A stretch of 21,807 bases of DNA. Source: a virus. The notes below the pieces were generated by a model. That model saw only the letters and a list, made by a program, of their open reading frames with translations. It had not been told where the DNA came from and searched no databases. Position 1 is the stretch's first letter, and every line of letters starts with the position of its first letter. The DNA is taken from positions 1 to 21,807 of IMG/VR virus record IMGVR_UViG_3300034120_000269. One strand, written 5' to 3'. The translations under genes and the position numbers were made by a program. This document shows positions 3,003 through 20,824 of this stretch, piece by piece.

Positions 3003-3668
3003 ATGAAAATATTAAATCTATATGCTTGTTTAGGTGGTAACAGATATAAGTGGGATGAAGTAGCACAAGAGGCAGGTATTAAAATTGAAGTGACTGCTAT
3101 TGAATTAGATGAAGAAGCTGCAAGATTATATCAAGAAAGATTCCCGAATGATAAAGTAATAGTTACAGATGCACATCAGTATTTATTAGATAACTTTAAA
3201 GAGTTTAATTTTATTTGGAGTTCTCCACCTTGCCCAAGCCATAGTAAAGTAAGAGTGAGCCAAAAAAATAGAGAAAATTTTAATTTTTTATATCCTGATT
3301 TAAAATTATATGAAGAAATAATTTTTTTAGATAATTTTTTTAATGGAAAATATGTAGTTGAAAACGTTACACCATATTATGAACCATTAATTCCTGCACA
3401 AAAAAGAGGTAGACATTTGTATTGGACAAATTTTAATTTGCCAATAGATTTAAAAGAAAGAAAATTAAATGGAAGTTTATGTTTAATGGAAAATGAAATA
3501 AATGTGCTTTCTGAATTTCACGATTATGATTTTAGAAAATATAAAGGAAATCAAAGATTAGATAAAATGGCTCGAAATTTAGTTGACTATGAAGCAGGAA
3601 GAACTATTTTTGAAATAGCATTAGGAATAGTAAACAAAAAACAAACTAACCAAATAGAATTATTTTAA
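3003..3668 (+). CDS. DNA C5-cytosine methyltransferase, compact
   Basis: This is expected to methylate cytosine C5 in DNA using S-adenosylmethionine. A variant motif I is at the N-terminus (NLYACLGG, 5-12; canonical FAGxGG). Acidic ribose-binding E34 lies in AIELD. Motif IV is SSPPCPSHS at 73-81 with the catalytic Cys at 77. Motif VI is ENV at 120-122, a motif VIII-like QKRGR is at 133-137, and a motif X-like RNLVDYEAGR is at 191-200. At 221 aa it is much shorter than cellular enzymes, and the region between motifs VIII and X, where target recognition normally sits, is only about 50 residues. No restriction partner is nearby, so it is probably an orphan anti-restriction methylase. C5 chemistry follows from the PC and ENV motifs; the target is unknown. 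Confidence 0.85.
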   Translation: MKILNLYACLGGNRYKWDEVAQEAGIKIEVTAIELDEEAARLYQERFPNDKVIVTDAHQYLLDNFKEFNFIWSSPPCPSHSKVRVSQKNRENFNFLYPDLKLYEEIIFLDNFFNGKYVVENVTPYYEPLIPAQKRGRHLYWTNFNLPIDLKERKLNGSLCLMENEINVLSEFHDYDFRKYKGNQRLDKMARNLVDYEAGRTIFEIALGIVNKKQTNQIELF

Positions 3669-5680: not shown

Positions 5681-5986
5681 ATGGAAGATAGAAGAAAATT
5701 TAACGGTGGTAATAAAAACGCAGGCCGTAAATCAAAAGTGGAAGAAGAAAAAGTAAACAACATCTTTTTAAAAGCATTAGGTGAACTTTACAATAAAGAA
5801 ACTGAAGAAGAAACAAAGATTGAATTTGTTAAAACTACTTTAATGGATTCACAACGTGGACAGTTGTTTATAGCTGAACACATATTCGGCAAACCAAAAG
5901 AAATTATAGAGGCTACACACAACGTAAATGATTTTAATATAAAAGACATCTTCAAAGTTGGGAATAGCAATAAATCAGAAATATAA
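5681..5986 (+). CDS. terS: Terminase small subunit, putative
   Basis: This is likely the DNA-recognition subunit of the packaging motor. The N-terminus has the basic Gly/Asn-rich opening NGGNKNAGRKSK (9-20) typical of small terminases in Bacteroidota phages, followed by helical regions (EKVNNIFLKALGELY; GQLFIAEHIFGKPKEI). The strongest evidence is position: its 3' end overlaps the large terminase start by 29 nt in a different frame. At 101 aa it is short for the family. A classical helix-turn-helix is not obvious, so recognition rests on context plus the NxGRK opening. An AT-rich leader precedes it. Confidence 0.68.
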   Translation: MEDRRKFNGGNKNAGRKSKVEEEKVNNIFLKALGELYNKETEEETKIEFVKTTLMDSQRGQLFIAEHIFGKPKEIIEATHNVNDFNIKDIFKVGNSNKSEI

Positions 5987-7166
5987 TTTACTTGGTTCAG
6001 ATAGTAGATACTTTGTAATAACAGGAGGAAGGGGAAGTGGTAAATCATATTCCCTTAATTCCTTTTTACTATTGCTTACTTATGAATCAGGCCACGTTAT
6101 ATTATTCACACGTTACACATTAACTTCTGCAAACGTTTCTATTATTCCTGAGTTTATAGATAAAATTGAAAGAGCTGATTTAAGCAGCGACTTTTATATA
6201 ACTAAAGATGAAATAGTAAATTTAAAAACAGGTTCTAAGATTCTATTTAAAGGTATTAAAACAAGTAGTGGTACACAAACTGCTTCGCTTAAATCTTTAG
6301 CAGGTGTTACTACTTGGGTATTAGATGAAGCAGAAGAATTAACAGATGAAGAAACATTTGAAAAGATTGATTTTAGTATAAGAACAAAAGGAATACACAA
6401 TAGAGTTTTATTAGTGTTAAATCCTGCAACAAAAGAACACTTCATTTATAAAAAGTTCTTTGAAGATAAAGGTGTACAAGCAGGAAGCAATTTAATAAAA
6501 GGTGATACTACATACATACACACTACATACTTAGACAACATAGAAAATCTATCTGAATCATTTATAACACAGATAGAGAATATAAAACAACGTAGACCGG
6601 AAAAGTATAATCATCAGATATTAGGTGGATGGATGGACAAAGCAGAAGGAGTTATATTTACTAATTGGACAATAGGCGAATACAAACAAATAGGTAAATC
6701 TATCTTTGGTCAGGATTACGGATTTGCAGCAGATGAATCAACACTATTAGAATGCAATATAGATACATCTAACAAACGAATATACATTAACGAAAGGTTT
6801 TATCTAAAAGGTTTAACAACATCGCAGATATACAGTTTAAACAAGCAGCACGCAAACGATGCTTTAATAGTTGCTGATTCGGCAGAACCAAGATTGATTA
6901 GTGAACTACAAACATTAGGTTTGAATATTGTACCTGCAGTTAAAGGTCCTGATTCAGTAACGTATGGCATTAGTATTTTACAAGATTATGATTTGATAGT
7001 ATCACCTGAATCTATTAATTTAATCAGGGAACTAAATAACTATTGTTGGTTGGAAAAGAAATCTAAAACTCCACAAGATGCACACAACCATTTATTAGAC
7101 CCATTACGTTATTGCGTTACTTACCAATTAGAAAATAAAAACAAGGGTAATTACTTTGTTTACTAA
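5958..7166 (+). CDS. terL: Terminase large subunit (Terminase_3-like ATPase/nuclease)
   Basis: This is the packaging motor that pumps DNA into proheads and cuts it. Walker A is GGRGSGKS at 23-30, Walker B VLDEAEE at 121-127 with the catalytic Glu, and a coupling-type LNPAT at 154-158. The C-terminal RNase H-like nuclease has its acidic residues in GQDYGF (D253), IVADSAEP (D307) and HNHLLDPLRY (D381). At 402 aa it is full length. The start must be TTG at 5958: the frame is closed by TAA at 5940-5942 and there is no ATG before Walker A, while a start at TTG gives the usual short N-terminus before the ATPase strand. The 29-nt overlap with the small subunit and the weak start suggest translational coupling that keeps the large subunit low. 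Confidence 0.93.
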   Translation: MGIAINQKYNLLGSDSRYFVITGGRGSGKSYSLNSFLLLLTYESGHVILFTRYTLTSANVSIIPEFIDKIERADLSSDFYITKDEIVNLKTGSKILFKGIKTSSGTQTASLKSLAGVTTWVLDEAEELTDEETFEKIDFSIRTKGIHNRVLLVLNPATKEHFIYKKFFEDKGVQAGSNLIKGDTTYIHTTYLDNIENLSESFITQIENIKQRRPEKYNHQILGGWMDKAEGVIFTNWTIGEYKQIGKSIFGQDYGFAADESTLLECNIDTSNKRIYINERFYLKGLTTSQIYSLNKQHANDALIVADSAEPRLISELQTLGLNIVPAVKGPDSVTYGISILQDYDLIVSPESINLIRELNNYCWLEKKSKTPQDAHNHLLDPLRYCVTYQLENKNKGNYFVY

Positions 7167-7316
7167 ATGACATACGGACAATTCATAGCTACGATACAAT
7201 GCTACATACATCACGTTAAAAACGTAGAAGTAGATATTGCTTTACCACGAAACATTGGTGAAATAAAACTAATGCATAAGATGTATGAAATAGCAGCAGC
7301 ATACTTAAAATGTTAA
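7167..7316 (+). CDS. Hypothetical 49-aa protein
   Basis: ATG 7167 directly abuts the TAA of the large terminase. The frame runs to TAA 7314-7316, and its last codon and stop lie within the conserved promoter-upstream block at 7311. The sequence begins MTYGQFIATIQCYIHHVKNV and ends with an Ala/Met-rich helix (KMYEIAAAYLKC). It has two Cys (11, 49) and two His but no clear metal-site pattern. I do not recognise it. Adjacent placement and a coding-like helix pattern support it. Confidence 0.5.
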   Translation: MTYGQFIATIQCYIHHVKNVEVDIALPRNIGEIKLMHKMYEIAAAYLKC

Positions 7317-7372
7317 AGTTTTGTTAAAATTAACATTGAGTGTTAATAATGTAAAAAGTAGGTGTATATTTG
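7311..7372 (+). promoter_or_regulatory. Promoter candidate with TATATTTG box
   Basis: TATATTTG at 7365-7372 fits TAnnTTTG and is identical to the box at 1873. The 20-nt block 7311-7330 matches 1830-1849 except at two positions. The distance from block to box is 34 nt here and 23 nt there, about one helical turn longer. ATTG at 7335-7338 is the nearest -33-like element but is far from the box. It would drive the two small genes at 7404 and 7570, up to the terminator at 7869. Confidence 0.5.
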
Positions 7373-7403
7373 TCAAAGAAATAACAACAAATAAAAACAC
7401 ATT

Positions 7404-7568
7404 ATGAAAACTTTAAAATTACAAAACGTAGAAACAGTAGATGGGTTTAATAACATCACAGGTATTTATACCTTTATTGGTAGAATAGAAAATACATATT
7501 CTATTTTGGTTGAATGTATTGATACAAAAGAATTGTTTTCAATTAGTGATTCTTATTTATACAGATAA
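7404..7568 (+). CDS. Hypothetical 54-aa beta-rich protein
   Basis: ATG 7404 follows an A-rich leader 31 nt after the TATATTTG box and runs to TAA 7566-7568. The product looks like a small all-beta domain: MKTLKLQNVETVDGFNNITG, then alternating strands around IYTFIGRI, YSILVECI and ELFSISDSYLYR. No family is recognised. It is the first gene of a short unit with the 90-aa gene, whose ATG follows after one base. Confidence 0.55.
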   Translation: MKTLKLQNVETVDGFNNITGIYTFIGRIENTYSILVECIDTKELFSISDSYLYR

Positions 7569-7569
7569 T

Positions 7570-7842
7570 ATGAGAACCTACAAAATTAGTTATTACACAG
7601 AATATGCTGATGAATGTTTTGATTCAGAAGCTACAATAGATGCCACAGGTATTTACGATGCGCTTATAACGTTTAATTCTAAGAATGTATGTAAACGTAT
7701 ATACAAAGTAGAAGAAATGCCTACAATGACCTTAGAACGCAGAATAGAACTAAAGGTAAATGAAGGGAACGATGTATGGATACCATACGCACAAATATCA
7801 CAATCACTTCGGGATTTTTGGATAGAGTATTTTAAGAAATAA
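7570..7842 (+). CDS. Hypothetical 90-aa protein
   Basis: I chose the ATG at 7570, one base after the previous stop. The frame is open upstream to an ATG at 7510, but that part overlaps the 54-aa gene and reads unlike a protein N-terminus. From 7570 the product is a small alpha/beta protein: MRTYKISYYTEYADECFDSE, an IDATGIYDALITF segment, RIYKVEEMP and a helix ending DFWIEYFKK. A strand-helix-strand layout of this kind occurs in many small phage proteins. No function is assigned. A terminator follows 26 nt downstream. Confidence 0.6.
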   Translation: MRTYKISYYTEYADECFDSEATIDATGIYDALITFNSKNVCKRIYKVEEMPTMTLERRIELKVNEGNDVWIPYAQISQSLRDFWIEYFKK

Positions 7843-7868
7843 AATTGGTTGGTTAAATAGTGGGAAAT

Positions 7869-7894
7869 AGGGTAGCAGAAATGTTACCCTTTTT
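7869..7894 (+). terminator. Intrinsic terminator upstream of the tail operon
   Basis: AGGGTAGC (7869-7876) pairs with GTTACCCT (7883-7890) with one G-U pair (7875 with 7884) around a 6-nt loop, followed by TTTT. It separates the small-gene unit from the tail operon. Confidence 0.8.
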
Positions 7895-7901
7895 CTGTTT
7901 C

Positions 7902-7920
7902 AATAGCTTTGCTATTTTGT
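7902..7920 (+). terminator. Second small hairpin behind the terminator
   Basis: AATAGC (7902-7907) and GCTATT (7911-7916) form a perfect 6-bp stem with a TTT loop, followed by TTGT. It could be a backup terminator or an mRNA 5'-end stabiliser. It lies 11 nt after the first terminator's T run and ends where the tail-operon leader begins. Confidence 0.4.
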
Positions 7921-7964
7921 TTAATACAATTTCACATAAAAGTTATTATTAAATAAAAAACTTT
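7920..7964 (+). promoter_or_regulatory. Late-leader motif, copy 1 (tail operon)
   Basis: A 45-nt block directly upstream of ATG 7965. TTTAATACAA opens it (7920-7929), TTATTATT is at 7943-7950 and an A run lies before the ATG. Aligned without gaps to the block before 18691, 35 of 48 bases agree (start codons included), and the core spacing is the same in the copies at 15260 and 16028. It may be a phage late promoter, a translation-enhancing leader, or both. It has no TAnnTTTG box. Confidence 0.5.
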
Positions 7965-8642
7965 ATGAAGTTAGAAATTTCTATACCTACATCTTTAAAA
8001 GAAATAACATTAGAACAGTACCAAAGATTTACAAGTATAGCTAAATCAAATCCTGAAGGTGATTTTTTGCAGCACAAGATGATTGAAATATTTTGTGGTT
8101 TATCGTTAAAAGAAATATCACTAATGAAGTTAAAGGATATTAACGCTATAACAAACAAGTTAGGCGAAATGTTCAATAACAACTATTCGTTAATTCAAAC
8201 ATTTAAACACAAAGGTTTAGAGTTTGGTTTTATTCCTAATTTAGATGAAATAAGTTTAGGTGAGTATACCGATTTAGAAACATATATTTCTGATTGGGAT
8301 AATATGCACAAAGCAATGGCAGTTTTATACAGGCCTGTAATAAATAAGCTAAACAAGAAATACCTAATAGAAGAATACAAAGGTTCAGCAGAATATTCAG
8401 AAGCATTATTACAAATGCCTTTAGATGTAGCTTTAGGTGCAATGGTTTTTTTTTATCATTTAGGCAACGCATTGTTGATGTCTACCCTGAATTATTTGGA
8501 GACGGACAAAGCATTGATGGATTTAGCAGAGAAGCACAGTTTGGCAGAAAATGGAGTTGGTATAGTTCCTACTATGGTCTTGCTCAGGGAGACGTTAGAA
8601 GATTTGATGAAGTTTCAAAACTTCGGCTTACAACCTGTTTAA
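7965..8642 (+). CDS. Tail assembly chaperone-like protein, unshifted form (225 aa)
   Basis: This soluble helical protein begins MKLEISIPTSLKEITLEQYQ and is the first gene of the tail operon. It is probably the counterpart of lambda gpG. Residues 1-163 are shared with a longer product made by -1 frameshifting at a T9 run. Residues 164-225 (YHLGNALLMSTLNYLE to the end NFGLQPV) are read only in frame 0 and still look like a normal helical C-terminus. In the dual-coding part Leu is mostly TTG, with CTG, CTC, GAG and ACG also present. Upstream the gene favours TTA and GAA, a shift expected when two frames are constrained. Chaperone identity is inferred from frameshift architecture and context; it lies 4.7 kb upstream of the tape measure rather than next to it. 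Confidence 0.65.
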   Translation: MKLEISIPTSLKEITLEQYQRFTSIAKSNPEGDFLQHKMIEIFCGLSLKEISLMKLKDINAITNKLGEMFNNNYSLIQTFKHKGLEFGFIPNLDEISLGEYTDLETYISDWDNMHKAMAVLYRPVINKLNKKYLIEEYKGSAEYSEALLQMPLDVALGAMVFFYHLGNALLMSTLNYLETDKALMDLAEKHSLAENGVGIVPTMVLLRETLEDLMKFQNFGLQPV

Positions 8643-8716
8643 CTTATTTAACATTTGAAAAAGAAAAAAACGAATTAGAAGCACAACAACTAAGAAGAAA
8701 TGAAAACATATTATAA
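7965..8716 (+). CDS. Tail assembly chaperone-like protein, -1 frameshift product (250 aa)
   Basis: Join of 7965-8453 and 8453-8716. In frame 0 the codons are ATG GTT TTT TTT TAT. A -1 slip on T TTT TTT (8447-8453) continues as TTA TCA TTT AGG for 87 codons to TAA 8714-8716. That extension is clearly protein-like: VDVYPELFGDGQSIDGFSRE, GRKWSWYSSYYGLAQGDVRR and a charged C-terminal helix. It has no ATG, GTG or TTG near its beginning, so independent initiation is unlikely. Its stop overlaps the next ATG (8700) by 17 nt, the style of overlap seen elsewhere in the genome. The architecture matches lambda gpG/gpGT, in which a minority of ribosomes make the longer chaperone. A 1-nt assembly error in T9 is the main alternative. 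Confidence 0.65.
8447..8453 (+). other. Slippery heptamer T TTT TTT for -1 ribosomal frameshifting
   Basis: The heptamer is in the correct phase (X XXY YYZ with YYZ as a frame-0 TTT codon) inside the 9-T run 8446-8454. It joins the two open frames exactly. No strong downstream stem-loop was found by eye, so any stimulator is undefined. Confidence 0.6.
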
Positions 8717-9161
8717 AGTTACAGAAGCATTACGTGATTCACTACTACAGGATGGTATAGTAAACAACTGTTCTACAGGTGATATTTTCAACGTAGATTT
8801 AAACAAGCGTACTATATTCCCTTTAGCACACGTTATTGTAAATAGTGTAGCAGAATCAGCAACAGGTAATACAAACCTATTTAACGTTTCTGTGTTACTT
8901 ATGGATGTTTGCGATATTTCACCTGATGAATCTACTGATTTGTGGTTAGATAACGATAACGAACAAGATATATTTAATACACAATTTGAAATAGGTAAAC
9001 GATTTGTAGAATCAATGCGTAGGGGTGATTTATACACGTTAGGTTATCAGTTAAACGGTAATGCAAATTACGAAGCGTTTAGTGATAGGTTTGAAAATAA
9101 GTTAGTAGGATGGACTATTACATTTAATGTAGAAGCAGCAAACGATACAACTATCTGCTAA
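8700..9161 (+). CDS. Hypothetical tail/head-tail joining protein (153 aa)
   Basis: The protein starts MKTYYKVTEALRDSLLQDGI and contains the stretch VDLNKRTIFPLAHVIVNSVA, which I associate with a conserved protein in tail modules of Bacteroidota siphophages. It appears alpha/beta, ending in paired strands (VGWTITFNVEAAN). The position directly before an HK97 gp10-like gene suggests a tail terminator or tail completion role, as in HK97-type gene orders, but I see no diagnostic motif. It overlaps the frameshift extension by 17 nt, and its stop shares one base with the next ATG. Confidence 0.6.
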   Translation: MKTYYKVTEALRDSLLQDGIVNNCSTGDIFNVDLNKRTIFPLAHVIVNSVAESATGNTNLFNVSVLLMDVCDISPDESTDLWLDNDNEQDIFNTQFEIGKRFVESMRRGDLYTLGYQLNGNANYEAFSDRFENKLVGWTITFNVEAANDTTIC

Positions 9162-9700
9162 TGGCATATAATCTAATAAATACACAAAAGACATTAGAAC
9201 GCTTTAGAGACTATGTAATACAACAAAGTAGAACTAATCTAACTAAAGGCGATAAAAACGTTACAAGCAATTTATATAGCCAATTAAAAGGTGAAGTAAA
9301 AGCAATGCCTAATTCAATAGGTGTTTATTTTGAAATGCCTGCTTATGGACAATTTCAAGACAAAGGAGTAAAGGGTAAATTCAGTTCATTAAAAGCACCA
9401 AACTCACCGTTTAAATTTGGTAGTGGTACAGGTAAGAAAGGTGGATTAACTGAAGGAATAAACAAGTGGGTAAAAGCACGTAGAATACAATTTAAAAAGA
9501 AAGACGGTAAATTTATGAGTTATGAATCTACTGCATTTATGATTACACGCAGTATTTATAACAAAGGAATACGACCAAGTTTATTTTTTACAAAACCATT
9601 TGAAGCAGGATATAAAAAATACATAACAGAAGATTTAATAAAAGGATTCGCATTAGATGTAGAAGATTTAATGAAAACAAGTTTAAAAGATATAAAATAA
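9161..9700 (+). CDS. HK97 gp10-like tail completion protein, putative
   Basis: A 179-aa basic protein with a layout reminiscent of HK97-gp10-like tail components. An N-terminal helix (LERFRDYVIQQSRTNL) is followed by a strand-loop MPAYGQFQDKGVKGK at about 64-78, which parallels the Y-----E-GT segment of gp10 proteins. After a Gly/Lys-rich loop, RSIYNKGIRPSLFFTKPFEA leads into a C-terminal helix. These proteins join the tail to the head completion complex. The assignment rests on the pattern and on position between the tail-operon start and the tail-tip genes. Overlaps of 1 nt with both neighbours show tight coupling. Confidence 0.62.
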   Translation: MAYNLINTQKTLERFRDYVIQQSRTNLTKGDKNVTSNLYSQLKGEVKAMPNSIGVYFEMPAYGQFQDKGVKGKFSSLKAPNSPFKFGSGTGKKGGLTEGINKWVKARRIQFKKKDGKFMSYESTAFMITRSIYNKGIRPSLFFTKPFEAGYKKYITEDLIKGFALDVEDLMKTSLKDIK

Positions 9701-10800
9701 TGAAAGTAATAAATGCACGTTCACCATACTTTATAGGGGTAGATGAAAACGACCAAGTAGCAGCACAATTAAGGTTATTCATTTGGAATAAAGGTGAAAC
9801 AGAACCTGCTACACCTACATACACTATTGAAAAGAAAATACCTTCTACAACGCAGCCTTTAATTGTATTTAATATTTCGCCTTACATAGCTGAACAAATA
9901 GAAACAATAGATGCTGTGCCACGTTCATTTGCTCACGAAGATGTAAATGATATGTGGGTTTATGTACGTGCTGAATGGTATTATAATGTTGCAGACGATA
10001 AAACGTGGGTGCTTGTACGTGAAATTAATTACATTGGTGTAAGTGGGTTTAATAATTATTTAGGTGGTGCAAACCAAGTAGTAACTGCACCTATTGTTTA
10101 TTTAACTAATCCTACAATTACGCAGTATTATAACGAAACTTTAGCACAAGATAAATTACCATATTTTAACGTACTAATTGAACACGATGGAGTTTCAATA
10201 ACTGAAGCAAAGTGGACAAATAGAAGATACGCCACATCAAGCACACAAGTATTATTAGATGATTCGTTTGCTGCTGATACATATATATTTATGATACCCG
10301 CAAAAGATGCAGGAATAGCAAACCATAATTTTGGAAATGATATAATAATAGAATCAGAATTAACAGGCACACTACAACCTACAGTTACTTTTTTACCTGT
10401 GTGTGAATCTAAATACACTCCTGTAATTTGTGAATTTATAAACAGATTTGGTGGGTGGCAATTTCTTACATTTTTTAAAGCACAAACAAATAACGTAGAA
10501 GTTAAGAATAGTGAATTTAGATTACTACCTGATAATTGGGATTACAATCCATTAAGAAATCAAACGCAGCAGTTTAATTTTAATGGCACGCAAAGTGTTA
10601 AACTAAACACAGGTTGGGTAGATGAAAACTATTCTGATTTAATGTTTGATTTAATGGCAAGTGAAACTATTTTATTAGATAACAAACCTGCTAATATTAA
10701 AACTAAATCAATGCCAATTAAAACAGGATTAATGGATAAGATGATTAATTACGAAGTTGAGTTTATCTATAGTTACAATCTAATAAACGATGTAGTATAA
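9700..10800 (+). CDS. Tail protein, probable distal tail/tip component (366 aa)
   Basis: Beta-rich throughout, starting MKVINARSPYFIGVDENDQV and followed by LRLFIWNKG and VFNISPYIAEQIE. This opening matches a conserved structural protein I know from tail modules of Bacteroidota phages, usually annotated only as tail or hypothetical protein. The middle contains YIGVSGFNNYLGGANQVV. The end has KTKSMPIKTGLMDKMINYEV and a YSYNLINDVV tail. It lies directly before the largest tail protein and overlaps it by one base, which suggests neighbouring parts of the tail tip, possibly with a Dit-like role. No catalytic motif is seen. Confidence 0.6.
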   Translation: MKVINARSPYFIGVDENDQVAAQLRLFIWNKGETEPATPTYTIEKKIPSTTQPLIVFNISPYIAEQIETIDAVPRSFAHEDVNDMWVYVRAEWYYNVADDKTWVLVREINYIGVSGFNNYLGGANQVVTAPIVYLTNPTITQYYNETLAQDKLPYFNVLIEHDGVSITEAKWTNRRYATSSTQVLLDDSFAADTYIFMIPAKDAGIANHNFGNDIIIESELTGTLQPTVTFLPVCESKYTPVICEFINRFGGWQFLTFFKAQTNNVEVKNSEFRLLPDNWDYNPLRNQTQQFNFNGTQSVKLNTGWVDENYSDLMFDLMASETILLDNKPANIKTKSMPIKTGLMDKMINYEVEFIYSYNLINDVV

Positions 10801-13184
10801 TGCAAAGTGTAGAAATATATATTTACGTTGATGGTGTAGCAAATCGAATTGAATTGTTTGGCGATGAAAAAATTTCGGTTGTTTCAAGCATACAGAATTT
10901 TAGCGATTTAGGGAAACTGTTTACGGATTATTCAAATAGCTTTACAATTCCTGCAAGCAAACATAACAACGCTATTTTACGCCATTGGTACGAATCAGCA
11001 GTAGGTGAAACAAACTTAGAAAACCCACAAGATGTAAATGGTGCTTTTGACCATAGAATAAAGTATTACGGATTTATTGAAATAGATACTATTCCTTTTC
11101 GTGATGGTAAATTTACAATGGATAAAGCCAATAAGAAAAACGGGTTTATAGAATCATATACAATTAATTTCGTTGGTAACTTAGTTCAATTAAAAGACAA
11201 ATTTAAAGAAGACAAATTAAATAGTTTAAGAGATGCTAACGATGTAAGTTATTATGATGAATTAAATTTTGAATACAATCAATCAAACGTAGTTACAGGT
11301 TCTTATGCTAACGTAAAATTTCCATTAGTTGGTAGTGATAGACGTTTTGAGTTTATGACAGGAACGGCAGAAGATATAACCACAGTTCCAGGCCAAATAG
11401 ATTATAGAACTTTGTTTCCTGCAATTCGAGTTTCGAAAATACTACAATATATTCAATCGGCTTATGGCCTTATTTTTTCAGGTGAATTTTTAAATAGTCA
11501 AACTTTTACTGAATTATTTTTATACTGCAAAAATGCTGAAGAAATGCAGGTTAGAACTGAACTATTACAAGTTAATTTTACAAGTTTAACAGGTAATCCA
11601 ACTACATCATCAGGAGAATATAATTTAACTACAAACACATTAAATGTTATACGTAGACAAATTTATATGGAGCGGTTTGGCTCTTTTATAACTGATTATC
11701 CTGATATAAGTAGATTTTCTATTCAAATAAATACAGTATCAACAAATTATAATATTCACGTTTATAATAACGGTATTCCTTTTACAAGTTTCTTAAATCA
11801 AAGCGGAAATACAACTTTTCAATTTTTATCTTTAGGAGAGTTTTTTACTGATGTTTATAATTTTACATTTTTTGTAAATTCAGACGATGCTGCTGTAACA
11901 TTTGAAAGTAGAATCATAAGCAGTTATTTTAAATTTGTAAGTACAGGGCCGAGTTCAGCAAGCGATATTTATTCCGCAAGGCACGACGCAATAGGAACGT
12001 GGCAAACAAGTACAGGGTTTATAAATATTAGAAATTACGTACCCGATTTAAAAGTAACTGATTTTTTAACAGGATTAGTTAAGATGTTTAATATGGTGAT
12101 TGCGCCAACTGCCGAAAATACATTTGATTTTATACCACTTGAATTATGGTATCAAAATGGGGATGAAATAGATATTACAAAATTTATTCAGGCAAATGAA
12201 TTAGAAATAGGCAAACCTAAACTATTTAAACGGATTGATTTTAAACACGAAACTTCAGAAAATGTTTTAAATAATTTTTATAGAAGCGCAAACAATAACC
12301 AAGAATATGGCGATGTGTTTTTTGAAAATCCTAATTCAGCGTTTACAGAAAATTACGAAGTTAAAACACCCTTTGAAGATGTAATGTGGGAACGTACTAC
12401 AGGCGAAAACTTTTTAACCACAACTATGTGGAATAAAGATTTGCAACCATATACACCAAAGCCTGTTTTAATGTATTACAATGGACTGCAAGGATTAGGC
12501 CCTTATGCTGATAATATAATTTTTAGCGATGGATTAACCACAATTACACGTTCATTTTATAATAGATTTTCAAATGAAATACAATTAGGTGGTTCTGATT
12601 TGTCTTACTTACAAACTTTAAATTGGGGTGTAGAAAATTCAGTATGGAATTTAACATTTGCACCTAACGGATTATATCAGCGTTTTTATAGTCAGTACAT
12701 TTTAAATTTATACAACCAACGCACAAGGGTAATAAAAGCAAAAGGAAATTTTAATCCTTATTTATTAGCTTCAATTAATTTAAACGATAGGGTAATAGTT
12801 TCTAATAAACGATATATTATAAACACACTTACAACTGATTTAACAACAGGTGAAGTAGAATTAGAATTGCTAAACGATTTCAGAGATATATTGCAAGACA
12901 CAACCTACTTTAGATATTCAAACATACCATTTTTAATAGTAGATAATACTGCACAGGTAGTTCAATTTATAATATACAAAAACAACTACGATACATTTGA
13001 TGTAAAGCTATCTACTGACTTTTTAAGCTATCCATTAACAACTGATAACGATACTGATATATTGTTAGAAGTAACTATTCCTGTTAACGCTACGGCAGCA
13101 GATAGAAACGATATAGTGATATTAGAATACTTTGAAAACGGAGTTGGAACTATAATACAAATACCTGTACTACAATATGCTTAA
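10800..13184 (+). CDS. Large tail-tip/baseplate protein with C-terminal BACON-like domain (794 aa)
   Basis: This is the largest protein in the window, probably the tail-associated (Tal/hub-like) protein at the tail tip. The N-terminus reads VEIYIYVDGVANRIELFGDE, then SSIQNFSDLGKLFTDYSNSF and TIPASKHNNAILRHWYE, a conserved opening of this protein type in Bacteroidota phages. A later segment (PYLLASINLNDRVIVSNKRY, then TTDLTTGEVELELLNDF) closes the main body near residue 700. Residues about 711-794 resemble a BACON domain: strands, then VTIPVNATAADRNDIVILEY and the terminal strand ending IPVLQYA, parallel to the N-----R---I-----Q pattern of that fold. BACON domains are thought to bind carbohydrate or mucin, so this could contact the host surface. 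No lytic motif was recognised. Confidence 0.68.
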   Translation: MQSVEIYIYVDGVANRIELFGDEKISVVSSIQNFSDLGKLFTDYSNSFTIPASKHNNAILRHWYESAVGETNLENPQDVNGAFDHRIKYYGFIEIDTIPFRDGKFTMDKANKKNGFIESYTINFVGNLVQLKDKFKEDKLNSLRDANDVSYYDELNFEYNQSNVVTGSYANVKFPLVGSDRRFEFMTGTAEDITTVPGQIDYRTLFPAIRVSKILQYIQSAYGLIFSGEFLNSQTFTELFLYCKNAEEMQVRTELLQVNFTSLTGNPTTSSGEYNLTTNTLNVIRRQIYMERFGSFITDYPDISRFSIQINTVSTNYNIHVYNNGIPFTSFLNQSGNTTFQFLSLGEFFTDVYNFTFFVNSDDAAVTFESRIISSYFKFVSTGPSSASDIYSARHDAIGTWQTSTGFINIRNYVPDLKVTDFLTGLVKMFNMVIAPTAENTFDFIPLELWYQNGDEIDITKFIQANELEIGKPKLFKRIDFKHETSENVLNNFYRSANNNQEYGDVFFENPNSAFTENYEVKTPFEDVMWERTTGENFLTTTMWNKDLQPYTPKPVLMYYNGLQGLGPYADNIIFSDGLTTITRSFYNRFSNEIQLGGSDLSYLQTLNWGVENSVWNLTFAPNGLYQRFYSQYILNLYNQRTRVIKAKGNFNPYLLASINLNDRVIVSNKRYIINTLTTDLTTGEVELELLNDFRDILQDTTYFRYSNIPFLIVDNTAQVVQFIIYKNNYDTFDVKLSTDFLSYPLTTDNDTDILLEVTIPVNATAADRNDIVILEYFENGVGTIIQIPVLQYA

Positions 13185-13335
13185 ACAAATATTAGAACTT
13201 CTGCAATGCACAGAGCATTACGGACAAAGCGAATTAATAGAAATTGCTAAAGGTAAATACGAACTACCTTCAACATTTAAAAAAGGATATACACAAATTA
13301 AAAGGGAAATGAAATGGCTGAAAAGTACGAAATAG
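13177..13335 (+). CDS. Small 52-aa protein between tail-tip and tape measure genes
   Basis: ATG 13177 overlaps the end of the large tail gene by 8 nt, and the frame runs to TAG 13333-13335, overlapping the tape measure start by 22 nt. The product (MLKQILELLQCTEHYGQSEL, then AKGKYELPSTFKKGYTQIKR) is a compact basic helical protein. It fills what would otherwise be a 129-nt gap in a tightly packed operon, which supports it. Function unknown. Confidence 0.55.
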   Translation: MLKQILELLQCTEHYGQSELIEIAKGKYELPSTFKKGYTQIKREMKWLKSTK

Positions 13336-15107
13336 ATTTAGAGTTAAAAAGCAATTTTGATAAGGTTGTTAAAGATGTAAACGACCTTAAAAAAGGTATG
13401 CAAAATGTCCAAAAGGAAACTGAAGATATTGGCAAATCAGCAAAGAACGCAGAAAAGGGTGTTAAATCTATTGGTGAAGGATTTAAAGCGATAGGTTTAT
13501 CTATTAAAGCAATGGGTATAGGTTTGCTTCTTGAAGCTTTTGCTATACTTAAAGATGTGTTTTCACAAAATCAAGTAGTAGCTGATAAATTTGCAACTGC
13601 TTTAGGTGCTTTATCTAAAGTATTTAATGATTTAGTTAATTTTTTAATTAAAAATATTCCTGTTGTTGTAGATTTCTTTAAAGATATATTTGAGAATCCA
13701 CAAAAACACATTGAAAAATTAGGAACTTTAATTCAAGAAAATTTAATTGAACGCTTTAATTCGTTATTAAAAACCGCAGGTTATTTAGGCGAAGCATTAG
13801 GAAACTTGTTTGAAGGTAAATTTGCAGCCGCAGTTGAATCAGTTAAAAAAGCAGGTAAAGAATCAATAGATGTTTTTACAGGTGTAAACAATTCGGTTGA
13901 TAGAGCAGGAGAAGCTATCGATAAAATTGGTGGTGCAATTAGTAAATATGGTAAAGAAACTTGGAACGCGGCAGCAGCAAATGTAGCATTACAAAATGCA
14001 GCTTTAATTGCAGCAGCACAGCAAGCTAAATTAGTTGAACAATATGATAGACAAGCAGAGGCACAAAGACAAATACGTGACAATGATTTATTAAGTATTG
14101 AAGATAGAATAACTGCAAATAATAAATTAAAAGATGTTTTAGACAAACAAGAAAAAGCAATGATTTCTGCGGCTGATTTACAATTGCAAGCAGCACAAAA
14201 CACTTATGCTAATAACAAATCAATAGAAAACCAAGTAGCTTTAATTAACGCGCAAGCAAACATAGAGGGTGTACTTGCACAGGTTAAAGGCTTAAAAAGT
14301 GAACAACTTTCAAATGAAATTTCTTTAACCAAAGAATTAGTTGCTTTAAAACAAACTGATGTTGATGCTACTGCTGCATTAGCTTTAGAAAATAAAAAGT
14401 TTAACGCTTCTTTAAATGATGATAATATAGCAAGATTAAATGCAGAAAGAGAAATACTACTTGCTGAACAAGAAACAGAAAGACAAAGATTACAATTAAA
14501 AATCGATGGTGCGGCAGAAGGTACACAAGCAAGGGTAGATGCTGAAATAGAATACAAAACAAGAATGCAAGAAATCGGAAACGAAATTAAGCAAAATGAA
14601 AAAGATAATGCTGATGCAAGTAAAGAAATAGAAAAAGAAAAAGCTGCAGCACGTGATGCTTATTTAACTGCGGGAAGTAATGCTTTAAAAAATGCTGCTG
14701 CTTTGGCAGGCGAAGCTACAGATGCAGGTAAAGGATTAGCTATTGCGGCTACTACAATAGATACGTATCAATCAGCAGTTAGTTCTTATAAATCGTTATC
14801 AGGTATTCCTGTAGTCGGGCCTGCATTAGGTGCTGCTGCTGCGGGTGTAGCTATTGCAACGGGTTTAATGACTGTAAAAAATATATTAGCAGTTAAAGTT
14901 CCCGGTGGTAGTAGTAGTGGTGGTGGTGCTCCCGCTACAGGTGCTGCTCCTAATTTTAACGTAGTAGGTGCTACAGGTGTTAATCAATTAGCAGGTGCAA
15001 TTAGCAATAGAGAACAACAACCTGTCCAAGCGTATGTAGTAGCAAATAACGTAACTACTGCGCAAGGTTTAGATAGAAATATAATTCGTTCAGCTACATT
15101 AGGATAA
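13314..15107 (+). CDS. Tail tape measure protein (597 aa)
   Basis: This is likely the protein that sets tail length and is ejected with DNA. The N-terminus is a long helix (residues 10-56, NFDKVVKDVNDLKKGMQNVQ), then a hydrophobic stretch (about 57-83, with IKAMGIGLLLEAFAILKDVF) and further membrane-active-looking segments (VNFLIKNIPVVVDFF). The middle is long coiled coil rich in Ala, Gln, Glu and Lys. Near the end is an Ala/Gly-rich segment (IPVVGPALGAAAAGVAIATG) and a Gly/Ser linker at 529-538. By the usual 0.15 nm per residue, 597 residues would give a tail of roughly 90 nm, short for a siphovirus. No peptidase or lysozyme motif is visible. Confidence 0.85.
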   Translation: MAEKYEIDLELKSNFDKVVKDVNDLKKGMQNVQKETEDIGKSAKNAEKGVKSIGEGFKAIGLSIKAMGIGLLLEAFAILKDVFSQNQVVADKFATALGALSKVFNDLVNFLIKNIPVVVDFFKDIFENPQKHIEKLGTLIQENLIERFNSLLKTAGYLGEALGNLFEGKFAAAVESVKKAGKESIDVFTGVNNSVDRAGEAIDKIGGAISKYGKETWNAAAANVALQNAALIAAAQQAKLVEQYDRQAEAQRQIRDNDLLSIEDRITANNKLKDVLDKQEKAMISAADLQLQAAQNTYANNKSIENQVALINAQANIEGVLAQVKGLKSEQLSNEISLTKELVALKQTDVDATAALALENKKFNASLNDDNIARLNAEREILLAEQETERQRLQLKIDGAAEGTQARVDAEIEYKTRMQEIGNEIKQNEKDNADASKEIEKEKAAARDAYLTAGSNALKNAAALAGEATDAGKGLAIAATTIDTYQSAVSSYKSLSGIPVVGPALGAAAAGVAIATGLMTVKNILAVKVPGGSSSGGGAPATGAAPNFNVVGATGVNQLAGAISNREQQPVQAYVVANNVTTAQGLDRNIIRSATLG

Positions 15108-15303
15108 ATAAAAACTATTAAAAAACATATTACTATAAATAAAAACTTGCGCTGTTAAGTATTGATTTTAAAGGGATTTTTAATTTAATAAACAAACTAA
15201 AAAAAAACAACAGGTAATATATAAAATAAAGAAAGTGCTTTAAAACGCAAAAAAAGCTATTTAAAACAAAATCAATAAAATTTAATTTTAAAATAAAAAC
15301 AAA
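15108..15303 (+). promoter_or_regulatory. 196-nt AT-rich junction between tail and capsid modules, with late-leader motif
   Basis: This is the longest non-coding stretch in the window. It contains no ORF and no convincing terminator. A local GC-richer island (ACTTGCGCTGTTAAGT, 15146-15161) stands out in otherwise A/T sequence. The last 44 nt (15260-15303) carry the late-leader motif: TTTAAAACAA (15260-15269), then TAATTTTA (15283-15290), an A-rich run and ATG 15304. It probably starts transcription or translation of the capsid module. Confidence 0.45.
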
Positions 15304-15882
15304 ATGCGAATAGTAGAATTAATATTAGATGATGATAAAGCTACAGGTGTAGAAGCAATTTCAATTGTAGAAAATCCTGCAATAGAAGAAAACTTTGTAG
15401 CACTAAATAAAGAAATAGAAATTAAACTTGCTGAAGTAGATTCTGATAAAAGAATTTTAATGGGTGCTGCATTAATACCTAATAAAAATATTTACAGAAG
15501 AAGCGGTGATGATGAATACTATATTTTCTTTTCAAAAGATACAGTAAAAAAAGCAAGTGAGTTATATCTAATGAATGGGTTTCAAAATAATGCAACTTTA
15601 GAACATAGCACAAAGTTAAAAGATTTATCAGTAGTTGAATCTTGGATAGTAGAAAGTGAAGTAGACAAATCACGTAACTATGGTTTAGAAATGCCTATTG
15701 GAACTTGGATGGTTTCTATGAAAGTAAACAACGAAGATATTTGGCAGGAGTTTGTTAAAACTAAAAAAGTTAAAGGTTTCAGCATTGAAGGATACTTCAG
15801 CGACAAAGTAGAAATGAACTTTCAAAAAGCTAAAGATGATGAATTGATTGAAAAAATTAAACAACTACTAAAAGATGAGTAA
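15304..15882 (+). CDS. Prohead protease, XkdF-like (Peptidase S78_2 type)
   Basis: This is likely the serine protease that matures proheads by cleaving scaffold and capsid precursor. The 192 aa match the XkdF-like layout. The N-terminal ELILDDDKATGVEAISIVEN is followed by PAIEENF. Next come RILMGAALIPNKNIYR and YYIFFSKDTVKKASELYL. LEHST at 99-103 has the candidate catalytic His101, and VKGFSIEGYF at 156-165 has the candidate nucleophile Ser160. ESWIVES, EMPIGTWMVSMKV and DIWQEFVK are also characteristic. It is followed by scaffold-like and capsid genes, the expected neighbours. A late-leader motif lies upstream. The third catalytic residue cannot be fixed from one sequence. Confidence 0.85.
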   Translation: MRIVELILDDDKATGVEAISIVENPAIEENFVALNKEIEIKLAEVDSDKRILMGAALIPNKNIYRRSGDDEYYIFFSKDTVKKASELYLMNGFQNNATLEHSTKLKDLSVVESWIVESEVDKSRNYGLEMPIGTWMVSMKVNNEDIWQEFVKTKKVKGFSIEGYFSDKVEMNFQKAKDDELIEKIKQLLKDE

Positions 15883-16027
15883 AGAAATAAAAACAACTTC
15901 ACCAAAAGGCGGTAAACGTGGTTGCTTGTGTAAAGATAATACGTACAACTCTAAATGCTGCAATGGTAAGTTACGTGAACAAGGTATAGGTACTTTAGTA
16001 GGACAAGGCAACGAACCTGCGCAGTAA
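15875..16027 (+). CDS. Small Cys-rich 50-aa protein
   Basis: ATG 15875 overlaps the protease stop by 8 nt, and the frame ends TAA 16025-16027. The centre is GCLCKDNTYNSKCCNGKLRE, giving four Cys as C17-x-C19 and C28-C29, followed by QGIGTLVGQG. I have seen this Cys/QGIG pattern in small proteins next to capsid genes of Bacteroidota phages, always unnamed. A metal site or disulfide knot is possible. Being wedged between the protease and scaffold region, it may take part in capsid assembly, but this is context only. Confidence 0.68.
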   Translation: MSKEIKTTSPKGGKRGCLCKDNTYNSKCCNGKLREQGIGTLVGQGNEPAQ

Positions 16028-16073
16028 TTTATAACAATTTAAAACAACAATTATTAATATAAAAAATTTTACT
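16028..16073 (+). promoter_or_regulatory. Late-leader motif, copy before the coiled-coil/scaffold/capsid group
   Basis: TTTATAACAATTT (16028-16040) and TTATTA (16051-16056) have the same offsets (positions 1, 7 and 24 of the block) as in the copies at 7920 and 18646, followed by an A run and ATG at 16074. The block starts right after the TAA of the Cys-rich gene. Confidence 0.5.
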
Positions 16074-16445
16074 ATGACACCTGAAGCACTAAAGATTTTA
16101 AACAAGTTTCAAAAAACTGAATTAACTGCGCAAAAAGTTGAATTAGCAGCAGGTGATGAAGAATCAAAAAAAATAGAAACTATTTGGAAGGAAGGCCAAA
16201 ACATCAGAAGTCAAGCATTAAAAGAAGCTATTTCCAAAGTTGATGCTTATACTAAAGAAATGGTTAATTTAAGAGTAAAAATGTTTAAAGATTCACAAAC
16301 ATTTTCTGCAAAATATAAAGAATTAGTTGGTGAAAGTGCAGATAACACTCAACAAATAAAAGATTGGAATAATGCTATTAGAATTGCTGATTCAAGAATA
16401 AATGAATTAGATAGTTTTAAAAAACAATTATCAGGAATACTTTAA
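16074..16445 (+). CDS. Hypothetical 123-aa coiled-coil protein in the capsid module
   Basis: I do not recognise this protein. It is entirely helical and charged (MTPEALKILNKFQKTELTAQ; KEAISKVDAYTKEMVNLRVK; IRIADSRINELDSFKKQL), probably a long coiled coil or helical bundle. There are no Cys residues and no membrane segment. Its place between the protease and the acidic scaffold-like gene suggests a capsid assembly or minor head role. It is separated from the next gene by 18 nt. Confidence 0.6.
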   Translation: MTPEALKILNKFQKTELTAQKVELAAGDEESKKIETIWKEGQNIRSQALKEAISKVDAYTKEMVNLRVKMFKDSQTFSAKYKELVGESADNTQQIKDWNNAIRIADSRINELDSFKKQLSGIL

Positions 16446-16463
16446 ATAACTAAATAAGTAAAT

Positions 16464-17000
16464 ATGAATGTAATTAACGAAATTAAAACTCTTTTGGGAA
16501 TGGAGGTAAAACTTGCCCAAATGAAACTTGAAGATGGTGTTACTGTTATCGAAGCAGAAGTGTTTGAAGCAGAAGCAGCCGTATTCATTGTAAATGGTGA
16601 AGATAGAATTGCTTTACCTGTAGGGGAATACAAACTTGAAGATGGAAACATTTTGAAAGTTGAAGTAGAAGGTGTTATTGCTTCTATTGAAATGCCTGCT
16701 GAAGAAGCCCCTGCTGAAGAAGAAGTTGCGCCTGAAGCTGAAGTAGAAGTTGAAGCGCAAGCTGCTGCTCCTAAACGTGTAGTTGAATCAATCACTAAAG
16801 AAATGTTCTTTTCTGAAATTGAAAAACTACGTGCAGAAATTGCTGAATTAAAATCAGTAAAACAAGAGTTAAGTGCTGAAGTTGATGTACAACCTTTAAC
16901 ACACTCACCGGAAGTTAAATCTTCTGTTAAATTAAATAAAATTTCATCTAATCGAACAATGTCTACACAAGACCTTGTAATGTCTAAACTTTTTAACTAA
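16464..17000 (+). CDS. Scaffold-like capsid assembly protein (178 aa)
   Basis: This is probably the scaffolding protein around which the prohead forms. The N-terminus (IKTLLGMEVKLAQMKLEDGV, then EAEVFEAEAAVF and LPVGEYKLEDGNIL) looks like a small beta domain. A strongly acidic Glu/Ala/Pro linker follows at about 78-98, then a coiled coil (MFFSEIEKLRAEIAELKSVK). The C-terminal tail NRTMSTQDLVMSKLFN is the kind of short terminal helix that binds capsid subunits. Proteins with this layout occur directly before the major capsid gene in many Bacteroidota phages. Gene order (protease upstream, capsid 9 nt downstream) agrees. The assignment is by architecture and context. Confidence 0.72.
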   Translation: MNVINEIKTLLGMEVKLAQMKLEDGVTVIEAEVFEAEAAVFIVNGEDRIALPVGEYKLEDGNILKVEVEGVIASIEMPAEEAPAEEEVAPEAEVEVEAQAAAPKRVVESITKEMFFSEIEKLRAEIAELKSVKQELSAEVDVQPLTHSPEVKSSVKLNKISSNRTMSTQDLVMSKLFN

Positions 17001-17009
17001 ATATAAAAA

Positions 17010-17954
17010 ATGGCTACTACTACTTCTATTACTTCTACCTACGCGGGAGAATTTGCAGGGAAATACATCTCAGCTGCATTATTATCAGGTTCAACTATTG
17101 CAAATGGTGGAATCGAAGTTTTACCTAACGTAAAATACAAACAAGTAATTCAAAAAATTGCTACAGATGGTATTGTAAAAAATGCTACTTGTGATTTTGA
17201 TGCTACTTCTACAGTTACACTAACTGAAAGAATTATTACACCTGAAGAATTCCAAGTAAATTTACAACTTTGTAAAAAAGATTTCCATAACACTTGGGAA
17301 GCGATTACAATGGGTTATTCTGCCTTTGATAATTTGCCTCCTTCATTTGCTGATTTCTTAATTGCTCACGTAGCCGCTAAAGTTGCTGAAAAAACAGAAC
17401 AAAACATTTGGAAAGGTGCTACTGCTACTGCAGGTGAATTTGATGGATTTGTAACTTTGGCTACTGCTGATGCTACAGTTCTTGACGTTGCTTCTCCTGC
17501 TGCAGGTGGTGTTACTTCAGGTAACGTAATTGCTGAAATGGGCAAATTAGTAGATTTAATTCCTGCTGCATTGTACGGAAAAGAAGATTTGTACTTATAC
17601 GTTTCACAATCAGTTGCTCGTGATTATGTACGTGCTTTAGGTGGTTTTGGTGCAAGTGGCTTAGGTGCTAACGGTACTAACGCAATGGGTACTCAATGGT
17701 GGAATAATGGTTCACTTTCTTTTGACGGAATCAAAGTATTCGTAGCAGAAGGAATGGCTACAGATTATATGATGGCTGCACAAAAATCAAACTTATATTT
17801 CGGAACAGGTTTGTTATCAGACCAAAACGAAGTTCAATTAATTGATATGTCGCCAATCGATGGTTCACAAAATGTAAGAGTTGTAATGCGTTTTACTGCT
17901 GTAGTTCAATACGGAATTGGTAGTGAAATTGTATTGTACACTCCTGCTGCATAA
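17010..17954 (+). CDS. Major capsid protein (HK97-fold)
   Basis: This is the main shell subunit. The 314 aa begin MATTTSITSTYAGEFAGKYI, without a long delta domain, in keeping with a separate scaffold protein. It contains segments typical of this capsid family in Bacteroidota phages: GGIEVLPNVKYKQVIQKIAT, ITPEEFQVNLQLCKKDFHNT and FADFLIAHVAAKVAEKTEQN. Later come GKEDLYLYVSQSVARDYVRA, a Gly/Asn-rich loop and FDGIKVFVAEGM, then RVVMRFTAVVQYGIGSEIVL. GC-richer codons and many GCT Ala codons suggest high expression. A strong terminator follows 18 nt after the stop. The HK97 fold is inferred from family resemblance and context. Confidence 0.87.
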   Translation: MATTTSITSTYAGEFAGKYISAALLSGSTIANGGIEVLPNVKYKQVIQKIATDGIVKNATCDFDATSTVTLTERIITPEEFQVNLQLCKKDFHNTWEAITMGYSAFDNLPPSFADFLIAHVAAKVAEKTEQNIWKGATATAGEFDGFVTLATADATVLDVASPAAGGVTSGNVIAEMGKLVDLIPAALYGKEDLYLYVSQSVARDYVRALGGFGASGLGANGTNAMGTQWWNNGSLSFDGIKVFVAEGMATDYMMAAQKSNLYFGTGLLSDQNEVQLIDMSPIDGSQNVRVVMRFTAVVQYGIGSEIVLYTPAA

Positions 17955-17972
17955 TCATAATAAATAAACAAG

Positions 17973-18006
17973 AAAAGGTGGTGCAATAAACATCACCTTT
18001 TTTTTT
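17973..18006 (+). terminator. Strong intrinsic terminator after the capsid gene
   Basis: AAAAGGTGGTG (17973-17983) pairs with CATCACCTTTT (17991-18001) as an 11-bp stem with one G-U pair (17981 with 17993) and a 7-nt loop. An uninterrupted T tract (17998-18006) follows. This is the best terminator in the window. Confidence 0.88.
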
Positions 18007-18027
18007 ATTAATGCTTCAAACAAAAAA

Positions 18028-18045
18028 GATAATTAATTGATTATC
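18028..18045. promoter_or_regulatory. Dyad GATAAT-N6-ATTATC before the tail tube gene
   Basis: A perfect 6-bp inverted repeat (18028-18033 and 18040-18045) lies in the 63-nt gap between the capsid terminator and ATG 18070. The gap must hold whatever starts the tail tube transcript, if the terminator is efficient. No TAnnTTTG box is present, and the late-leader motif is at best degenerate here. Confidence 0.35.
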
Positions 18046-18069
18046 AATAACTTATAAAAAAATTTCAAA

Positions 18070-18597
18070 ATGGCTTGTGATATAACACTCGGAAGATTAG
18101 AACCCTGTAAATCAGCAGTAGGCGGTTTAAAAGCTGTTTATTTTGTGAATTGGGGTGATGCAACAGGATACACGTACAACGCAACAAATACAGATGTAAT
18201 TGACACCGTTACAGGTACACCTTCAGCATATAAATACGAATTAAAAGGAACGAATAGTTTTGACCAAACTATAACTTCTTCACGTGAAAACGGAACTACA
18301 TTTTTTGACCAAAGTGTAAAACTTCAGTTGAAAAGTTTAGATATTGTTACACATAAACAAATCAAATTGCTTGCTTATGGTAGACCACAAGTGATTGTAG
18401 AAGATAACAACGGAAACTTATTCTATTGTGGTTTAGAACACGGAATGGAAGTTACAGGTGGAACTATTGTTTCAGGAACTGTAATGGGCGATTTATCAGG
18501 ATACACATTAGAGTTGAAAGGAATGGAACGTGTAGCAGCTAATTTTATCGGTGATGATTTAGCAGGCGCAGGATTTACTATTGTTTTAGGTAGTTAA
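18070..18597 (+). CDS. Major tail tube protein (175 aa)
   Basis: This probably forms the tail tube. It reads MACDITLGRLEPCKSAVGGL, then KAVYFVNWGD, YKYELKGTNSFDQTITSSRE, NGTTFFDQSVKLQLKSLDIV, THKQIKLLAYGRPQVIVEDN and LEHGMEVTGGTIVSGTVMGD. I recognise these as conserved blocks of the main tail protein in Bacteroidota siphophages. The beta-rich composition and length fit a tube protein. The gene stands alone between two terminators (17973-18006 and 18618-18643), as expected for a highly expressed monocistronic unit. It is separated from the tail operon by the whole capsid module, an unusual position. Confidence 0.78.
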   Translation: MACDITLGRLEPCKSAVGGLKAVYFVNWGDATGYTYNATNTDVIDTVTGTPSAYKYELKGTNSFDQTITSSRENGTTFFDQSVKLQLKSLDIVTHKQIKLLAYGRPQVIVEDNNGNLFYCGLEHGMEVTGGTIVSGTVMGDLSGYTLELKGMERVAANFIGDDLAGAGFTIVLGS

Positions 18598-18617
18598 TTT
18601 ATTCTTACAATTTAATT

Positions 18618-18643
18618 AAGGGTGGCATTAGCTACCCTTTTTT
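18618..18643 (+). terminator. Intrinsic terminator after the tail tube gene
   Basis: AAGGGTGGC (18618-18626) pairs with GCTACCCTT (18631-18639), a 9-bp stem with one G-U pair (18624 with 18633) and a 4-nt ATTA loop, followed by T6 (18638-18643). The core stem matches those at 1749 and 7869. Confidence 0.85.
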
Positions 18644-18645
18644 AT

Positions 18646-18690
18646 TTTAAAACAATTTCGACTTTTATTTATTATTTAATAAAAAATAGA
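18646..18690 (+). promoter_or_regulatory. Late-leader motif, copy before the portal group
   Basis: TTTAAAACAATTTC (18646-18659) and TTATTATT (18669-18676), followed by an A run and ATG 18691. It has the same length and offsets as the block at 7920-7964 and, like that one, starts directly after a terminator. Confidence 0.5.
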
Positions 18691-19032
18691 ATGATAGTTT
18701 TAAAGGATTCTACATACACACAAAATTTCAAGTTTATGCCACGTAGTTGTAATATTACTTCTATGGTGTTTAAAGATGAATTAGCAAATGTAGAACACGA
18801 AATAGAAAACCCTGTACTTGTAACAGAAAAGTATTGGATGCAATTTCAAGAAGATTTAACGTTTGAATTTCTAATAGATGGGCGTACATATAACTTAACT
18901 TGTTTTGATGGCGCAAACGTCGTTTATAGAGATAAAATAATGTGTACAAATCAATCTATTTCTACATACACAATTAATCAGGGTGTTTACGTTGCACACG
19001 CTACATCTAATGAATTTATAATATATGACTAA
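18691..19032 (+). CDS. Hypothetical 113-aa beta-rich structural-region protein
   Basis: I chose ATG 18691. The frame is open back to an ATG at 18622, but that start lies inside the terminator stem and the added 23 residues look non-coding. The product begins MIVLKDSTYTQNFKFMPRSC, has LTFEFLIDGRTYNLTCFDG and ends in the strand NEFIIYD. It looks all-beta, and its last 8 nt overlap the portal gene. The position at the head of the portal group suggests a minor virion protein or a fibre-related component. I recognise no family with confidence. Confidence 0.65.
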   Translation: MIVLKDSTYTQNFKFMPRSCNITSMVFKDELANVEHEIENPVLVTEKYWMQFQEDLTFEFLIDGRTYNLTCFDGANVVYRDKIMCTNQSISTYTINQGVYVAHATSNEFIIYD

Positions 19033-20821: not shown

Positions 20822-20824
20822 CAA

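Follow-up and report, generated by a model that had tools for sequence, protein, structure and literature searches.

We identified one gene in the virus record IMGVR_UViG_3300034120_000269 (21,807 bases, all of which were analysed; hereafter the window) whose reading can be continued in two ways past a run of nine thymines (T9). The shift into the -1 frame at this run, which places two C-termini on one N-terminal domain, is on sequence comparison real and widely conserved, and it is carried throughout a large family of Bacteroidota viruses. The reading that we judge probable is one gene with two proteins, in which a slip of RNA polymerase at T9 gives the long form and the two forms act as a pair for virion assembly in a set ratio. 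From one start, two proteins with a common N-terminal domain of 163 aa would be made: unslipped mRNA would be translated into a 225-aa form, whose predicted helical tail is overprinted on the other frame; in a share of the mRNAs, RNA polymerase would add one U (or a frame-equivalent number) at T9; and the slipped mRNA would give a 250-aa form with the C-terminal domain seen in relatives that have a single ORF. Made in a set ratio, the two forms would serve the assembly of the virion, most likely of its tail, like lambda G/GT. We infer both that the two products exist and that the slip is made by RNA polymerase, not by the ribosome.

The frame-0 gene, delimited by its ORF and its relatives, is located at 7965-8642 (forward strand, as are the other genes and gene parts of the window given here) and encodes the short product of 225 aa. 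The N-terminal domain common to both products (163 aa, 7965-8453) is related to the N-terminal part of single-ORF proteins of the phrog_25418 type; the T9 run is at 8446-8454, with the in-register heptamer T TTT TTT at 8447-8453; and the -1 frame extension at 8453-8716 (87 codons plus a TAA at 8714-8716) would form the C-terminal domain of the long product (163 + 87 = 250 aa). The remainder of frame 0, the tail of the short product (8454-8642), overlaps the extension. The open stretch of the -1 frame begins at about 8348, upstream of the T run, and in the window this frame has no ATG, GTG, or TTG giving an ORF of 20 aa or more, so an independent start for the extension is ruled out. The next gene (8700-9161, 153 aa, an ORF matching phrog_30964, function not known) has its ATG at 8700 and overlaps the end of the extension by 17 nt (8700-8716). 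An earlier note on this DNA had described frame 0 as open to 8642 and the -1 frame as open through 8453-8716, joined at T TTT TTT, the latter frame lacking a start codon and having a stop that overlaps the next ATG; the sequence bears this out on each point. There is also a TAG in the third frame, two codons past the T run (8461-8463), which is found in the same place in 243 of 253 loci and would cut short the products of a slip in the opposite direction. We set aside the idea that it is a designed truncation, since it is probably a consequence of the codons that the two real frames use.

To establish how widely the run is kept, we took a census of loci by the N-terminal domain, the T run not being required. 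The census held 480 loci; omission of 93 duplicates and of three contigs that end before the site left 384 distinct loci, the window included. The run is found at the same place as T9 in 352 and as T10 in 31 of these, and T7, T8, or T11 at the slip site occurs in 0 of 383 loci. The -1 extension matches its profile in 382 of the 384; the two exceptions are L398, a contig that is too short, and L098, which has an internal deletion. The relatives came from searches of viral contigs with frame 0 (273 relatives), the extension (503), the Nonlabens extension (320), and an N-terminal profile (at least 590), the best 80 being taken from each, and from three further seeds with 9, 82, and at least 593 relatives, the best 80 of the two larger sets being used; the search peptides for frame 0 and the Nonlabens extension contained the FF site, and the N-terminal profile and the three later seeds were without it. 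Five MAG contigs carry the gene, all with T9, and are titled Flavobacterium, Winogradskyella, Psychroflexus, or Bacteroidetes bacterium. Among phage records, tblastn with the window's products and with four distant members matched solely the Nonlabens phages P12024S and P12024L, one of the distant members having no match there. Both are isolated phages; they have T9, and their records show the gene as two ORFs.

We reject an assembly error or a pseudogene, as 382 of the 384 distinct loci repeat the run together with both frames. The earlier note had named as contrary cases an assembly error at T9 and homologues with T8 or T10 in which a single frame is conserved; in the homologous loci compared, T8 does not occur and the 31 loci with T10 all keep the extension in -1. 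It follows from the latter that no T10 among the 31 is a bare one-base insertion. This count bears also on a contingency locus, in which slippage during DNA replication would switch the two forms within a phage population. Homopolymer runs are mutable, and in L098 (around 3221-3230) T10 sets the extension in frame with the codons directly before the run; but L098 is the sole locus seen in this state, and it also has an internal deletion upstream, in the N-domain, because of which its site was misplaced in the census. With a frame-changing length in that locus alone, we hold a contingency locus to be very improbable.

Both frames are selected to stay open. We resampled synonymous codons from the window's usage in 107 distinct loci near the window (109, less L098 and one further locus), each locus being tested against its own observed length, so that values near one half would be usual without selection. 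For the window itself, 1 of 2000 trials (0.05%) leaves frame 0 open for its observed length when the -1 frame alone is kept, and 0.35% leave the -1 frame open over the overlap when frame 0 alone is kept. Over the 107 loci, the observed openness of frame 0 has a per-locus chance of 0.008 at the median (sum 2.3) under selection on -1 alone, and that of -1 over the overlap a median chance of 0.001 (sum 0.2) under selection on frame 0 alone; since the loci share descent, these chances do not come from independent trials and the sums do not count independent events. In this set, frame 0 is open for 57 to 85 codons past the slip, with its stop at the same codon in 88 of 107 loci; over 253 loci, the tail ranges from 27 to 85 codons. 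Codons of the form NTA in the -1 frame, which make frame-0 stops when A or G comes next, account for 2.7% in the overlap versus 13.4% downstream (frame 0 upstream, 13.4%), in agreement with the shift in frame-0 codon choice reported before.

Silent positions give a similar but less uniform picture. Codon identity at conserved residues in 44 sister pairs is 0.924 in the overlap, 0.911 in -1 downstream, and 0.839 in frame 0 upstream, i.e., the overlap is well over frame 0 upstream and barely over -1 downstream; in 44 more distant pairs, the values are 0.766, 0.700, and 0.604, respectively. For pairs that differ by 0.1-0.7 upstream, third positions of -1 codons are less divergent in the overlap than downstream, and in the closest pairs (distance 0-0.1) they are slightly more divergent in the overlap (0.086 vs. 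0.063). We also looked for residue-level constraint on the frame-0 tail at silent -1 codon changes, and did not detect it there: the frame-0 changes have mean BLOSUM scores of -0.47, -0.46, and -0.85, where -0.48, -0.61, and -0.83 are expected (96, 202, and 277 changes, respectively). As the frame-0 changes are not more conservative than expected, the residues of the tail are taken to be mostly set by the -1 frame. The dual coding proposed earlier stands in that both frames are kept open (medians of 0.8% and 0.1%), but not as far as constraint on the frame-0 residues is concerned. The length of the tail (27-85 codons) and its residues, without detectable constraint, count to some extent against a specific role for the short form, and one could suppose that the long form alone is functional and that frame 0 past the slip is a by-product, which would be compatible with either slip mechanism. 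That the single-ORF relatives described below encode just the long form would fit this idea as well, yet frame 0 is open far longer than a -1 protein alone predicts, and it is in the overlap, not downstream, that NTA codons are avoided; we consider the idea unlikely.

Comparison of the frame-0 model to viral models gave 39 matches with E < 0.001, each of them either unnamed or uncharacterised; among these are a Nonlabens protein and a protein of Flavobacterium phage 6H (the latter match was assigned to the 191-aa gene of 6H by length alone). A tblastn search from the 6H gene found homologues in 25 records. Single ORFs of 259-301 aa without T9 are found in Flavobacterium phages 23T, 2A, FPSV-F7, and laban6-1, Cellulophaga phage Ingeline, Polaribacter phage Leef, and “Microcystis” phage Mea-Yong924. 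The five single-ORF proteins that were scanned all match phrog_25418, a PHROG of no known function. In 6H itself (L315, 10047-10927), the homologous gene is broken where 23T, 2A, and FPSV-F7 have one ORF, by either a sequencing error or a real change. The homologue at 7953-8777 of L322 lies in a phage recorded as infecting Microcystis; since the homologue is otherwise seen here in phages of Bacteroidota, this host label may deserve a check.

We then compared profiles (hhalign) of the products in 83 of 253 long forms with that of five of the seven single-ORF proteins, near-copies having been dropped and E-values being per single comparison. The long form matches the single-ORF profile with an E-value of 1.2e-18 (245 columns); a second run gave 2.6e-14 (230 columns). 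The N-domain alone gives 6e-12, and the short form, at 2.6e-12, shows no gain over it; the extension alone gives 1.3e-6 (probability 81%), and the frame-0 tail 0.44. This comparison shows the long form to be the common architecture and the frame-0 tail an overprinted alternative: the phrog_25418 proteins are homologous to the long form in both their N- and C-terminal parts, and differ from the present gene in having one uninterrupted ORF without T9. By this profile evidence the -1 extension is the ordinary C-terminal domain, and not the add-on that the earlier note had taken it for. We infer that the single ORF is ancestral; in an alternative history, which is possible, the single ORFs would result from a later fusion by an indel. 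The structures were predicted with the two C-termini modelled separately: the last helix of the predicted N-domain (residues 153-180 of the short form) runs across the slip site, a helical fold is predicted for the extension (mean pLDDT 85), and confidence is low for the frame-0 tail past residue 180. Of two further families, phrog_32199 matches the frame-0 part with 16 of its 16 members and phrog_38404 the extension with 22 of its 36, i.e., PHROGs keeps two separate families for parts of one gene (e.g., that at 8001-8695 of L148), likely because the Nonlabens gene was annotated as two ORFs. A protein held in this way as two families in a phage protein database will be missed in genomes.

The question of which machine slips turns mainly on the length of the run. 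A ribosomal frameshift of the classical -1 kind at U UUU UUU, on the model of lambda-type tail genes and with the long U run helping, is a possibility that we take seriously though hold only tentatively: phage tail genes widely use -1 ribosomal frameshifting (according to the portion consulted of PMC5009743), and the window has the heptamer in the right register. Since such a heptamer is contained in every run of at least nine, every locus could use ribosomal slippage, which is also the caveat to the polymerase case. For the ribosome T7 would do, but neither T7 nor T8 occurs in any of the 383 loci. Likewise, in 231 of 253 loci the last T of the heptamer could become C without altering either protein and with the pattern X XXY YYZ kept, but this C is present in 0 of 253; TTC makes up 16 of 151 Phe codons in six genes of the window. 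In five of 383 loci, from three lineages (L308/L324, L328/L331, and L268), the T on one side of the heptamer is missing, and each of the five has extra T at the opposite end, so the run is still nine or ten; among the other loci, such an extra T is found at the 5′ flank in 3 of 378 and at the 3′ flank in 27 of 378. Judging from these loci, run length, not register, is what is conserved, although the flanking T's may be set in part by coding (hydrophobic residues).

Long T runs are otherwise avoided in these phages. In 1,183 other genes from the same phages (1.04 Mb), the ratio of seen to expected runs is 0.53 for T7 and 0.28 for T8, the avoidance growing with length, and T9 or longer was seen once versus 17.5 times expected. 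For T7, the ratio is 0.58 in the slippery register and 0.26 and 0.61 in the other registers, so the slippery register is not singled out. The avoidance could also reflect replication slippage. A scan of 2.7 Mb on one strand, in which overlapping loci were counted more than once, found T9 or more at 66 other distinct places, only two of them inside ORFs of at least 100 codons, and neither of these two has a long open -1 frame. The window has a second T9 run at 17998-18006, which is intergenic and directly past the capsid-like gene. As for RNA structure downstream of the slip site, the pseudoknot-free consensus had 0 pairs in 22 sequences, and pseudoknot-free folding of single sequences gave mean z values of -0.2 to -0.6 (n = 60).

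On these grounds, namely that T9 or longer is kept where T7 suffices, that length is compensated from the other end, that T runs are avoided elsewhere, and that no pseudoknot-free RNA structure was found, RNA-polymerase slippage is favoured over ribosomal frameshifting. The programmed -1 frameshift of the earlier note can be kept as a conserved shift, present in 382 of 384 loci; its ribosomal nature is not established, and run length favours the polymerase. The published record, as far as the parts consulted of each article go, has several points of contact. Avoidance of A or T runs shows from nine in a large proportion of bacterial genomes, and IS elements are the largest group using transcriptional slippage (Baranov and others, 2005; PMC1088944); PMC5009743 covers mxiE, lambda G/GT, and slippage on runs of nine A or T; and homopolymers of eight or more are given as typical for transcriptional realignment in PMC3711429, which also reports 6-7% frameshifting in an HK97-like cluster of phage tail chaperones. 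Prediction of ribosomal frameshifts in phages is the subject of PMC10885494. The present case resembles Thermus thermophilus dnaX in its run of nine and Shigella mxiE in that the longer product would depend on slippage (PMC1088944 and PMC5009743, in the parts consulted); unlike both, it is a phage gene whose run is conserved over hundreds of phages and in which both frames are open for tens of codons past the run. Whether, across a broad set of Bacteroidota phages, polymerase slippage on a strictly kept T9 or T10 sets the ratio of two forms of a virion-assembly protein, the second tail being overprinted over the ancestral domain, seems to us about evenly balanced.

A role in virion assembly is likely from the position of the gene, which lies between the terminase gene (large subunit, 5958-7166, a PHROG/Pfam-level match) and the gene at 8700; in Cellulophaga phage Ingeline, the genes for portal and tape measure stand on either side of the homologue, with two genes separating it from the latter. 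By analogy, the two forms, the common N-domain, and the helical C-domain would suggest a tail-chaperone role. In lambda, gpG and gpGT are made by way of the slip heptamer G GGA AAG, directly before the tape measure gene. The present gene is like that pair in having two predicted products with a common N-terminal part and a -1 shift, as seen in the sequence alone, and in sitting among virion genes. It differs in having T9 in place of G GGA AAG, in the overlap of the frames by about 63 codons with a long form that adds just 25 aa, and in not adjoining the tape-measure-like gene, which is located at 13314-15107 by PHROG match, ~4.6 kb downstream of the extension (top match, a virion structural protein; tape measure family, E 1.8e-4). 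The tail-chaperone identity suggested earlier is not established. With hhalign, lambda T and G (as single sequences) gave probabilities of 0.1% and 0.2%, i.e., no match; Pfam had no match worth the name and none to tail chaperones, the weak Pfam matches of single members to unrelated families being ignored; and PDB fold searches with both models gave no usable match. Among the 50 viral-model matches listed, two weak ones are labelled tail assembly (E 0.0086 and 0.26). We do not file the gene as a member of the lambda G/GT family.

In the available portions of the open-access literature, which most subscription journals lie outside, we found no paper reporting such a case. If true, the proposed mechanism would add a virion-assembly gene, from aquatic phages of a common group, to the cases of programmed transcriptional slippage, and a tail-chaperone-like pair would be made by transcriptional in place of ribosomal recoding. 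The hundreds of genes at hand would form a natural series for telling polymerase from ribosomal slippage by run length and register, and would offer a case of overprinting with single-ORF relatives as a reference. The gene order around the locus has a feature of its own: in the window (5958-21724), the head genes (protease, capsid-like, and portal) come after the tape-measure-like gene, not before it.
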